11,273 bases of DNA from a bacterium (GTDB lineage Bacteria; NPL-UPA2; JAGMAN01), in contig JAGMAN010000108.1 of the NCBI GenBank assembly GCA_023130215.1, positions 1 through 11,273 of the forward strand, given 5' to 3'. This document shows, piece by piece, positions 2,740 through 6,380 of this stretch (its first letter is position 1; every line of letters begins with the position of its first letter). The translations under genes were made by a program, and so were the position numbers. The notes under the pieces were generated by a model that worked only from the letters and a program-made list of their open reading frames with translations, was not told the DNA's origin and did not search any database.

Positions 2740-5073
2740 GTGGTAAAGGAAATAGAAGTCCAATGTGTTTTTCAGCCGGAGAAATTGACATTCGGTGAAA
2801 TCCCGGCATTTGAGTATAATTGTTCTCTGCAAGAGGAACTTGATTCAGGCAATACCTCCCGGGAGGAACTAATCAATCTTTTAGAACAGATGCTCATGGC
2901 CCGCTGCATTGAGGAGATGATAGCCGAGATCAAACTAAATGCTTACGAACCTTTGCCCGGGTTTGATTATTTCGGACCTACCCATTTGTCTATAGGCCAG
3001 GAGGCTACCTCTGTAGGGGCAGTAGCCGCCTTAAATCCGGATGATTATATAACCAGTTCTCACCGGGGACACAGTGACGCCGTGGCCAGGGGATGTTCAT
3101 ATATCAGAAAACTAAATGATACCAAGCTCTCAGAATACTTAAAAGAAAGGGCTGTATGGCTTGAGGCTATTGGTGAGACATTAGATAAGCGGAGTACCCG
3201 TCAGGAATTGGAAGAGAAAGCCCTGCGTGTCCATATCTACCGTATTATAGCGGAACTGTTCGGCAAAAAGGACGGCTACTGCGGTGGTATGGGGGGAAGC
3301 ATGCATATTGCAGATTTCAGCACCGGACATTTAGGGGCTAATGCTATTGTGGGCGGACATATGGGTATTGCCACCGGTGCAGCCATTTCCTGCCGCTATC
3401 AGGACTTGAGAAGAGTGGTGCTTTGTTTTGCCGGCGACGGGGCCTACAATCACGGTATAGCCCATGAATCAATGAATATGGCGGCTATGGCCCAGTTTGA
3501 AAACGGGCTTATGAAGGAAAAATTTGGTGTGCCTATAATCTATGGTGTGGTGAATAACCAGTATGGTATGTCCGGCCAGTTTAGCGGTGAGATAAGCGGT
3601 ATTGATTATGTGGCCCGCCGGGCGGCCGGATATAACCTGAGGAATATGTCCGCCGAAGTGGTCAACGGTATGGATGTCTTAGCGGTCAAAGAGGCCACCA
3701 CTCGAGCAGCAAAAAAGGCCAGAGAAGGTAAGGGGCCTATACTGCTTGAATACATTACCTACCGCTATAAAGGCCATTCTTTATCTGATCCCTCATCCTA
3801 CCGCAGTAAAGAAGAAGTTAAGCTCTGGCAGAGCTATGACCCTATTGAATCCCTTTTTAAGCAGCTTAATGAATACCCGATAAAGGGTCAGCCTCTCATT
3901 TCTGAAGAGGAATTTGAGGCCTTAAAGCAGAAGGCCTGGCAGAGAAATGCGGATATGGCTGTCCAAGCAGCTAAATCAGCCGACCCGGAGCCTTCACACC
4001 TTCTGGAGAACATGTATTGTCGGACCAGCAGTGAGGTAGTTCCCAAGCAATTCAGCGATGTTAAACTGGTTAAATCTCCCACTCCCATTAAACGTGATAG
4101 CGAGGGCAAAATAAACTTCCGCTTTGCCATAAAGGAAGGTCTGATAGAAGAGATGACCAGGGACGGGAGGGTTCTCCTGTTTGGGGAGGATGTGGCTGAA
4201 TATGGCGGCGCCTTTGGTGTAACTTCTGGTCTGCTTGGTATATTCAGCCGGGACAGGGTTTTTAATACAGCCATATCGGAATCAGCTATAGTAGGTGCCG
4301 GTGTAGGTATGGCTATGGCCGGCCTGCGGCCTGTTGCCGAGCTTATGTATTGTGACTTTATCCTTATGGCCATGGACCAGATAGGCAATCAGGCAGCCAA
4401 ATGGCAGTTTATGTCCAACAGACAGATAAAAATGCCCTTAGTCATTCGCATCTCCATTGGTGGGGGCAGGGGATACGCCGGTCAACACTCACAGAGCTTA
4501 GAATCCATAGTAACCCATATGCCCGGGCTAAAGGTGGTTGCTCCCTGGGATGCCTATGATGCCAAGGGTCTGATTAAGAGTGCCGTCAGAGATGATAATC
4601 CAGTCATCTACTTTGAACATCAATTGTTGTATAATCTGAAAGTTAGGGTGCCTGAAGAAGAATATCTGGTCCCAATAGGCAAGGCTAAAGTCCGGAGAGA
4701 AGGAAAAGATTTGACCATAGTGACCTGGTCATATTGTGTGGGACTTGCCTTAGAAGCAGCTGAGAAACTCAAAGGACAGGGGATAGAAGCAGAAGTTATT
4801 GACCTGCGCACCCTAATTCCCTGGGATGAGGAAACAGTAATAGATTCGGTAAAAAAGACAGGCCGCTGTCTGGTTGTGTCCCAGGCAGTTTCCCAGGGAA
4901 GTTATACCGGTGAAATTGCCTCTACTGTCCAGGCCCGGGCCTTTGATTATCTGGACGGACCAGTGCTCAGGTTAGGAGCCATGAACTGTGTTTCACCCTC
5001 ATCAATAGCCCTGGAGAAAGTTTATCTCCCGGATGCTGAGGCTATTGTGAATCAGGTTCAGACAATGTTTTAA
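2740..5073 (+). CDS. 2-oxoacid dehydrogenase E1, alpha and beta subunits fused
   Basis: E1 uses thiamine diphosphate (ThDP) to decarboxylate a 2-oxoacid and acylate the lipoyl arm of E2. This 777-residue chain holds both subunits. E1-alpha spans about 45-430: HRGH at 108-111, DGYCGGMGGSMHIAD from 178, and the ThDP/Mg motif from GDG at 232-234 to NN at 272-273. E1-beta spans about 455-777: GEDVAEYGG, the ThDP-activating glutamate E514 in AISES, and the conserved H583 in GQHSQSLE. The start is GTG with AGGAGG eight bases upstream. It is longer than two usual subunits (about 680) because of an N-terminal extension, roughly 45 extra residues between HRGH and the GYCGG motif, and about 11 extra residues inside the ThDP motif. 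E2 follows 17 bases downstream. The substrate (pyruvate, branched-chain oxoacid or acetoin) cannot be told from sequence by eye. Confidence 0.9.
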   Translation: MVKEIEVQCVFQPEKLTFGEIPAFEYNCSLQEELDSGNTSREELINLLEQMLMARCIEEMIAEIKLNAYEPLPGFDYFGPTHLSIGQEATSVGAVAALNPDDYITSSHRGHSDAVARGCSYIRKLNDTKLSEYLKERAVWLEAIGETLDKRSTRQELEEKALRVHIYRIIAELFGKKDGYCGGMGGSMHIADFSTGHLGANAIVGGHMGIATGAAISCRYQDLRRVVLCFAGDGAYNHGIAHESMNMAAMAQFENGLMKEKFGVPIIYGVVNNQYGMSGQFSGEISGIDYVARRAAGYNLRNMSAEVVNGMDVLAVKEATTRAAKKAREGKGPILLEYITYRYKGHSLSDPSSYRSKEEVKLWQSYDPIESLFKQLNEYPIKGQPLISEEEFEALKQKAWQRNADMAVQAAKSADPEPSHLLENMYCRTSSEVVPKQFSDVKLVKSPTPIKRDSEGKINFRFAIKEGLIEEMTRDGRVLLFGEDVAEYGGAFGVTSGLLGIFSRDRVFNTAISESAIVGAGVGMAMAGLRPVAELMYCDFILMAMDQIGNQAAKWQFMSNRQIKMPLVIRISIGGGRGYAGQHSQSLESIVTHMPGLKVVAPWDAYDAKGLIKSAVRDDNPVIYFEHQLLYNLKVRVPEEEYLVPIGKAKVRREGKDLTIVTWSYCVGLALEAAEKLKGQGIEAEVIDLRTLIPWDEETVIDSVKKTGRCLVVSQAVSQGSYTGEIASTVQARAFDYLDGPVLRLGAMNCVSPSSIALEKVYLPDAEAIVNQVQTMF

Positions 5074-5090
5074 GTTTTGGAGGTTTGACT

Positions 5091-6380
5091 ATGGTCAATA
5101 AAGTGATAATGCCCAAGTTGGGGCAGACGATGGAAGAGGGAGTTATTGAACGGTGGATTAAGAAAGAAGGGGATAAGGTGGAGAAGGGAGATATTTTATT
5201 AGAGATAACCACTGATAAAGCTACCCTGGAAGTAGAATCCTATGCCAAAGGAGTGTTGCGTAAGATATTAGCTCAGGAAGGGGAAACAGTGCCAGTGACA
5301 CAGGTGATTGCCCTCATTGCTGAGTTAGATGAGGAGCTGCCGGAGATAGGCGAAGCCATCCCTTCAGGGGTAAAGGTGGAGGTAGAAGTAGAAGATGGAA
5401 AGAAAGAGCCGGTAGGCGTCACCCTTGAAAAGGGGGAGCCAGTTGCAGTGGTTTCTAAAACAGGGGAATCCCTTCCTGAGAAAGGACGCCCTGTAGCTGA
5501 AGGGCGGGTCAAAGCTTCTCCTCTGGCTAGAAAATTAGCGCAGGAGAAAGGCATCGATTTAACCCAGGTTGTGGGCACCGGGCCAGGAGGAAGGATTACC
5601 AAGGAGGACATATTAAAAAAAGTTCAAGCGACCCACCCTGTGGGTAGGCGAAGCCATCCCTTTAGGGATACCCCGAAGTTAAAAGTGAAAAGTGAAGAAG
5701 AGAAGAAGGTTGTGCCTCTCAGTCCGATGAGGAAAGCCATTGCCGAGGCAATGAGTGCATCAAAAAAGACAGTCCCTCATTATTATGTTACCATTGAGGT
5801 GGATATGACCGGAGCAGTCATCAGGAGGAAGGAAATCCTGGCTCAAATGAAAGGCAAGGGCGGCGTTCCGGTGTCCTATAGTCATATTTTGACTATGGCG
5901 GTTGCTCTTGCCCTAAAGGATTTCCCTGAAGTTATGTCTAGTTGGGATGAAAAGGGAATCACAGTCAATGAAAAGATTAACATTGGTATTGCTATCGCTT
6001 TAGATGAAGGACTAATCGTTCCTGTCCTTAGAAAAGCTGATGAGATGACCCTAAAGGAGATAGCTTCCCGGACTGAATCACTGGTTTCCAGAGCCAAGGA
6101 GATGAAACTTAAAGCTGATGAATATGTTGGGGCTACCTTCACTGTCTCCAACCTGGGAATGTTCGGGGTGGAAAATTTCCTTCCCATCATCAATCAGCCG
6201 CAGTCGGCTATCTTAGGGGTAGGAGCTATTTCGGAAAGACCAGCCGTAGTGAAAGGCAAAGTGGCTATAAGGCATTTAATGAAGCTGACTCTCTCTGTTG
6301 ATCACAGGGTGGTGGATGGTCAAGTCGCCGCCCAGTTTTTGGCCAGGGTAAAGGAGATGTTGGAGAATGGAGAATGGTAG
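5091..6380 (+). CDS. 2-oxoacid dehydrogenase E2, lipoyl acyltransferase
   Basis: E2 is the core of the 2-oxoacid dehydrogenase complex and moves the acyl group from lipoamide to CoA. The 429-residue chain has one lipoyl domain (about 3-80; lipoylated K43 in TDKATLE), a peripheral-subunit-binding domain (139-178, RVKASPLARKLAQEKGIDL then GTGPGGRITKEDIL) and the CAT catalytic domain (about 205-429; H405 and D409 in HRVVDG). The start is ATG 5091, seven bases after GGAGG at 5079-5083; an in-frame TTG at 5085 lies too close to that site. Both inter-domain linkers contain the same DNA repeat in different frames, IGEAIPSG in the first and GRRSHPFRD in the second. The gene is co-directional with E1, and lptD begins 8 bases after its stop. 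The E3 partner is not in the window, and the acyl specificity is unresolved. Confidence 0.92.
   Translation: MVNKVIMPKLGQTMEEGVIERWIKKEGDKVEKGDILLEITTDKATLEVESYAKGVLRKILAQEGETVPVTQVIALIAELDEELPEIGEAIPSGVKVEVEVEDGKKEPVGVTLEKGEPVAVVSKTGESLPEKGRPVAEGRVKASPLARKLAQEKGIDLTQVVGTGPGGRITKEDILKKVQATHPVGRRSHPFRDTPKLKVKSEEEKKVVPLSPMRKAIAEAMSASKKTVPHYYVTIEVDMTGAVIRRKEILAQMKGKGGVPVSYSHILTMAVALALKDFPEVMSSWDEKGITVNEKINIGIAIALDEGLIVPVLRKADEMTLKEIASRTESLVSRAKEMKLKADEYVGATFTVSNLGMFGVENFLPIINQPQSAILGVGAISERPAVVKGKVAIRHLMKLTLSVDHRVVDGQVAAQFLARVKEMLENGEW
5347..5372 (+). repeat. repeat copy A inside the E2 gene (first linker)
   Basis: The core TAGGCGAAGCCATCCCTT is followed by CAGGGGTA. Copy B at 5645-5670 matches at 24 of 26 positions, with two transitions. 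Here it is read as IGEAIPSG, between the lipoyl and subunit-binding domains. CCCTTCAGGG is itself a small palindrome. Confidence 0.75.
5631..5670 (+). repeat. repeat copy B with flanking palindrome inside the E2 gene (second linker)
   Basis: ACCCAC-CCT-GTGGGT (5631-5645) is a perfect six-pair hairpin. It runs into the shared core TAGGCGAAGCCATCCCTT (5645-5662), which ends in a second hairpin, ATCCC-TTTA-GGGAT. It is read as THPVGRRSHPFRD, between the subunit-binding and catalytic domains, in a different frame from copy A. The encoded residues do not resemble usual alanine/proline-rich E2 linkers, consistent with an inserted palindromic element. Confidence 0.75.

Follow-up and report, generated by a model that had tools for sequence, protein, structure and literature searches.

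Two related segments in the linkers of one E2 gene

The window analysed here, a stretch of 11,273 nucleotides of bacterial DNA, carries a dihydrolipoamide acyltransferase (E2) gene in which two closely similar 26-base segments (copies A and B, Table 1) are read in different frames, which raises the question of how the same DNA came to stand twice within one protein-coding gene. A sequence-only reading had proposed a genome-wide mobile palindrome that is tolerated in frame. Our analysis bears this out: further copies were found in the same genome and in its relatives, together with precise empty sites, and we put the probability that the two segments are copies of a dispersed, non-autonomous mobile micro-element at about 0.8.

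Table 1 Features of the E2 locus (positions in the window)
Feature	Position	Strand	Description or basis
Copy A	5347..5372	+	TA + 24-nt unit, TA shared at both ends; TAGGCGAAGCCATCCCTTCAGGGGTA
Hairpin 1 of copy A, GGC-GAA-GCC	5349..5357	+	Fold of consensus unit; same pairs in all 42 copies
Hairpin 2 of copy A, ATCCC-TTCA-GGGGT	5358..5371	+	Fold of consensus unit and pair counts
Remnant, probably of a 21-nt unit, linked to copy B by a common TA	5624..5646	+	3'-end match to the 21-nt form
Copy B	5645..5670	+	Same element as copy A, GGGATA end; TAGGCGAAGCCATCCCTTTAGGGATA
Hairpin 1 of copy B, GGC-GAA-GCC	5647..5655	+	Consensus fold and pair counts
Hairpin 2 of copy B, ATCCC-TTTA-GGGAT	5656..5669	+	Consensus fold and pair counts
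Host gene, E2: lipoyl, E3-binding and catalytic domains	5085..6380	+	Pfam

The positions of both segments, the two transitions that separate them and their use in two frames of a single E2 gene, all described before, were verified on the sequence; the two related 26-base segments stand, but the natural limits of the repeat are TA...TA around a 24-nt unit. Copy A matches TAGGCRAAGCCATCCCTTYAGGGRTA with zero mismatches, and a search of the window with the 26-mer at up to three mismatches returned copies A and B only, while 200 dinucleotide shuffles of the window gave no match at the same threshold. Pfam places the lipoyl domain of E2 at reading-frame positions 21-93, the E3-binding domain at 157-192 and the catalytic domain at 220-443, in agreement with the proposal that both interdomain spacers are occupied: copy A lies in the linker between the lipoyl and E3-binding domains and is translated as (I)GEAIPSG(V), and copy B lies in the linker between the E3-binding and catalytic domains and is translated, in another frame, as GRRSHPFRD. 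The E2 linkers have tolerated two insertions. An alignment of E2 orthologues and a search of the genome for further copies had been suggested as checks; in both congeners (G001 and G002) the orthologue has neither insert, and the genome holds five copies in all. The hairpin noted ahead of copy B is also real. Its last 14 nt (5633-5646, CCACCCTGTGGGTA) equal the 3' end of the 21-nt form of the element described below, and it is therefore probably a decayed second copy, so that, judged by this match, copy B probably represents two units in tandem with one common TA, a decayed one of 21 nt and one of 24 nt.

Two neighbouring features were recorded at this locus. Just 3' of copy B, at 5676-5697, AAGTTAAAAGTGAAAAGTGAAG resembles a heptamer-like tandem repeat, and heptamers of such kind accompany small dispersed repeats in cyanobacteria. 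Directly upstream of E2, at 2740-5073, a 777-aa ORF resembles fused E1 alpha and beta subunits of 2-oxoacid dehydrogenase.

Distribution of the element among genomes

The genome to which the window belongs (1.01 Mb in 136 contigs, about 90% complete) carries its remaining copies in tandem within the phosphomannomutase gene (two) and in a short ORF (one). When the 5' module alone (TAGGCRAAGCCRYCC) was used as query, 40 matches were obtained in four genomes, all of them, like every genome considered here, incomplete metagenome-assembled genomes (MAGs): five in the window's own genome (G000), 21 in G005, nine in G007 and five in G041. The reversed-pattern control of this module gave no match in the carrier genomes. 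G005 and G007 belong to one genus in another family of the window's phylum, while G041 comes from another GTDB phylum. When contigs from 84,980 species were scanned, matches came only from three MAGs bearing the title Candidatus Omnitrophota; by their coordinates two of these are G005 and G007, and the third is G041. No copy was found in viral contigs, phages or plasmids. The comparison included nine genomes of the window's phylum and at least 384 of the phylum of G041. The module was not found in the six other genomes of the window's phylum (the two congeners and four others). Among the 383 other genomes of G041's phylum there were 11 single 15-mer matches, none followed by a second hairpin and TA; their frequency is about that of the reversed-pattern control, and they were ruled out as real copies and ascribed to chance.

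Misbinning of G041 contigs from the lineage of G005 was considered and rejected, since the carrier contigs of G041 have 34-38% G+C, as do its other contigs, compared with 41-44% in G005. As far as sequence matches can establish it, identical sequences of the element occur in two GTDB phyla. Such a distribution offers a handle on how tiny repeats move, a question that has been open since the first accounts of the cyanobacterial repeats.

Architecture and folding of the unit

The 24-nt unit consists of a GGCRAAGCC hairpin followed by an ATCCC-TTTA-GGGGT hairpin, between TA dinucleotides. The general architecture is a fixed GGC-RAA-GCC and then ATCC(C)-variable-GG(G)GT, with the two hairpins adjacent and no spacer. 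The second hairpin reads ATCC-TGT-GGRT in the 21-nt unit, ATCCC-TGCGAAGCAA-GGGGT in the 30-nt unit, ATCCC-ATGCCTCTGGCTA-GGGGT in the 33-nt unit and ATCCC-TGCCCCGGGGGGGCAA-GGGGT in the 36-nt unit. Over 42 copies, unit lengths were 21 nt (n = 9), 24 nt (n = 27), 30 nt (n = 2), 33 nt (n = 3) and 36 nt (n = 1), all divisible by three. Tandem units share one TA and are arranged head to tail.

On the GGCRAAGCC strand, every length form folds to the same two hairpins. In the fold prediction for the complementary strand, the end pairs are lost in the GGGGT forms, because T:G (32 copies) and T:A (7 copies) alternate at the second pair of hairpin 2. The stem of hairpin 1 did not vary in the 42 copies, a constancy that the search pattern itself required. 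The folding energies of single units were not exceptional compared with shuffles (z 0.28 to -1.66), and the structural case thus rests on pairing that persists while length and sequence change. No curated Rfam RNA family matched at the copies.

At an orthologous ABC-transporter site, a 21-nt unit in G005 (L125, G005:C32) stands opposite a longer, differently shaped one in G007 (L186, G007:C109; ACACCCTAAAGGGCACAGGCAGGATGGCTTCGCC), and on this comparison hairpin 2 may be able to change length in place.

Insertion site, empty sites and recent movement

Comparison of related genomes revealed precise empty sites, all of which keep a single TA. The congener G001 reads GGAGGG-TA-GGGGAC where the phosphomannomutase gene of G000 carries two 24-nt units. 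Between G005 and G007, exactly 24 nt are missing in G007 at AGG-TA-AAGATG of rpoB, 24 nt are missing in bamA and 21 nt in tilS. The proteins around the tested sites are 86-94% identical between these two genomes, and since most tested G005 insertions are nevertheless missing in G007, the movement is recent; one 21-nt copy is common to an orthologous site in both. For MutL and PolX, the G001 sequences had diverged too far to call empty sites, and murF and the 33-nt rpoB site have further indels close by.

These data dispose of the view that nothing has moved, according to which the similarity would reflect chance, or local duplication or gene conversion within E2. Copies A and B do lie only 300 bp apart in one gene, but none is expected by chance, 42 copies occur in unrelated genes of four genomes, and the empty sites are exact. 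We regard this explanation as refuted, with next to no probability remaining for it.

TA stood directly 5' of all 40 copies from searches that did not demand it (TA frequency 0.059), and was also present at the 3' end in 36 of 42. CC followed the TA at 18 of 39 independent sites (1.9 expected, P = 5e-14) and CCC at 10 of these 39 (0.5 expected); some targets lack TACC. At rpoB and phosphomannomutase, the alleles without insertion already carry the CC. The base before TA varies, with G in 10 of 39, and copies are dispersed on both strands.

TA at both ends and a single TA in empty sites satisfy the criterion of TA target duplication, as expected if the unit were a MITE (miniature inverted-repeat element) derived from a Tc1/mariner/IS630 transposon. 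Yet there is no terminal inverted repeat (the 5' end is TAGGC, while the complement of the 3' end is TACCC), the unit measures only 21-36 nt with a variable middle, and the target preference reaches as far as TACC. Such an origin is therefore improbable. The likeness to MITEs such as RUP, Correia/NEMIS and ERIC, which are 100-200 bp long with terminal inverted repeats (PMC2229807), is limited to TA at the termini and non-autonomy; the element has neither their inverted repeats nor their length.

Host genes and reading frames

Of the 42 copies, about 33 are inserted in frame within Pfam-supported genes, and three are probably outside genes. The hosts include rpoB (two copies), mutS, mutL (two), E2 (two), phosphomannomutase (two), tilS, murF, bamA and polX, as well as leuA-like, folC-like, another Mur ligase, DnaJ-like and PilM-like genes, the coaBC C-terminal domain, the PPDK N-terminal domain, a PD-(D/E)XK nuclease (two), an O-antigen ligase (two), glycosyltransferases, an epimerase, an ABC ATPase, a V-ATPase subunit and MOSC. 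Alignment with solved homologues of RpoB and MutS shows the inserts as extra residues. The earlier suggestion that the repeat occupies flexible linkers is thus correct for both E2 copies but does not extend to the element in general, other copies being found inside rpoB, mutS and bamA.

Within ORFs of at least 250 aa, the frames used were antisense phase 2 (TPKGMASP, 14 copies), sense phase 1 (GEAIPLG, seven), sense phase 2 (RRSHPFR, five) and antisense phase 0 (two). Both antisense phase 0 copies are 21-nt units, a form without stop codons in that frame, and no copy was found in a frame closed by the unit's own stop codons. This usage is what would be expected if insertion were random and gene-breaking events were then eliminated, although the in-gene fraction was not compared with random insertion. 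With the same reservation, most copies of the element sit within genes, many of which are essential, and add amino acids without breaking the protein. With copies in frame in such core genes as rpoB, mutS and bamA, the element amounts to a natural insertion scan of core proteins. For annotators, the peptides TPKGMASP, LGEAIPLGV and RRSHPFRG in host proteins are relevant as insertion scars, not domains.

Possible mechanism and candidate mobilisers

Direct observation covers dispersal, entry at a single TA with TACC preferred, maintained pairing, lengths divisible by three, open frames and recent insertion. The route is inferred, and no mobilising gene was identified in searches for Y1_Tnp and RVT_1. 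We propose that an enzyme supplied in trans would recognise the folded GGCRAAGCC strand, as ssDNA or RNA, and that this strand would go in at TACC, which is able to pair with the GGGGTA 3' end of the unit. Selection would then weed out gene-breaking insertions, so that the surviving copies would be additions of 7-12 codons tolerated by the host proteins. Most probably the element is selfish and nearly neutral.

One narrower form of this single-strand or RNA-mediated insertion is a REP-like element moved on ssDNA by a Y1/HUH transposase (RAYT or IS200/IS605), in which the unit would be excised and inserted beside GGTA of the complementary strand, the terminal TA being a remnant of the cleavage site and not a duplication. 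The formal outcome would be the same as that of TA duplication, and hairpins without terminal inverted repeats and a short asymmetric target (TACC/GGTA) fit such an enzyme, which by anatomy is the best candidate class. Y1_Tnp genes are present in G005 and G041, but none is flanked by the element, and none was found in G000, which is 90% complete and has five copies, or in G007. The Y1 gene on contig C31 of G041 lies amid three copies of a different palindrome, CGGTTTAGGCGAATCCTAAACCG, and a GTAG tag of the REP type is not constant, the bases before TA being variable. Present in two carriers and absent from two, this transposase could not be accepted as the mobiliser, although the incompleteness of the genomes keeps the possibility alive; we consider this version possible but unlikely.

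A second specific version, RNA-mediated insertion, is slightly less likely still. Here the transcribed hairpin RNA would pair with TACC via its 3' GGGGUA and be copied into DNA at a nick, a route said to have been proposed earlier for the cyanobacterial small dispersed repeats. Folding favours one strand, where G:U takes the place of A:U, and the 3' end can base-pair with the favoured target; however, ssDNA forms G:T pairs too, and a reverse transcriptase was matched only once, in G005, and in no other carrier. With one match in one carrier it was not retained as the mobiliser, and again incomplete genomes leave the possibility alive.

Speculatively, and with as little confidence as for the RNA route, the element may represent a minimal class in which the two-hairpin single strand of 21-36 nt would itself be the substrate, find TACC by 3'-end pairing, rely on an undescribed enzyme, cross bacterial phyla and rewrite core proteins in frame.

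Relation to known small repeats

In size, hairpins and precise insertion, the element resembles most the cyanobacterial small dispersed repeats (SDRs), an analogy drawn without direct sequence comparison. The SDR families of Elhai et al. 2008 are reportedly about 21-27 nt long, hairpin-forming and recently mobile, with tandem or nested copies and an unknown mobiliser. The shared traits are 21- and 24-nt forms, hairpins, recent mobility, tandem copies and precise insertion at a short site. Unlike these SDRs, the element has 30-36 nt forms exceeding that range, belongs to another lineage with another sequence, and has a 5' hairpin that stays fixed while the second varies in length, unit lengths divisible by three and a location mostly in frame in genes. 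SDR5 inserts between bases 3 and 4 of HIP1, as quoted in PMC4390886, whereas the target here is TA, preferably TACC.

Rickettsia palindromic elements, the analogy drawn by the sequence-only reading, are 105-146 bp long stem-loops with 12-bp terminal inverted repeats, in which TA ends are not constant and target duplication is unknown (PMC2229807). The analogy is apt for behaviour (in-frame, protein-coding, in several frames): like these elements and the Wolbachia protein-coding palindromes, the unit is a selfish palindrome in frame in many unrelated conserved genes. It fails for family. With 21-36 nt the element is four to six times smaller, differs in sequence and consists of two adjacent hairpins whose ends are not complementary; membership was rejected on size and inverted ends.

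GTAG/CGTC REPs and REPINs with RAYT are mostly intergenic, with a constant GTAG/CGTC tag and often as head-to-head dimers (PMC3733652, PMC3116915). They share with the element hairpins of 20-40 bp, G:T stem pairs and some intragenic units, but the element has no constant tag, forms head-to-tail tandems and is mostly intragenic. Assignment to this group was rejected because the tag is missing and no Y1 transposase is flanked by the element, with the proviso of incomplete genomes. PARCELs, 25-residue amphipathic tandem domains in their own ORFs (PMC2996958), are likewise palindromic coding repeats with a patchy, horizontally spread distribution, but the element forms no such 25-residue domains. 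To our knowledge, which covers the literature only in part, this is the first case to combine lengths divisible by three, a TACC target, mostly in-gene residence and a two-phylum distribution. Among mobile DNA units for which exact empty sites, a defined target and recent activity can all be shown, the element is one of the smallest.

Other repeats and features in the carrier genomes

On contig C31 of G041 (L143), three CGGTTTAGGCRAATCCTAAACC(G) palindromes at 1219, 1978 and 2485 surround the Y1 transposase gene in the classical manner of REP/RAYT, without relation to the element. G005 (L120-L133) contains several copies of a second dispersed repeat, GGGACTGACTCCG / GTGTCTGTCCCTTTTTTGC, one of them near the element in tilS. 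In G007 (L012, G007:C8:5915), the element is flanked by two other palindromes, CGCAACCTAAAGGTTGCGG and CGCGGGCTTTAGCCCGCG, which suggests a cluster of different small palindromes at this place. A selenocysteine tRNA gene lies in G005 (L122:3108-3192, G005:C14), its match to Rfam RF01852 being just above the cut-off, which hints at selenoproteins in the lineage of G005.
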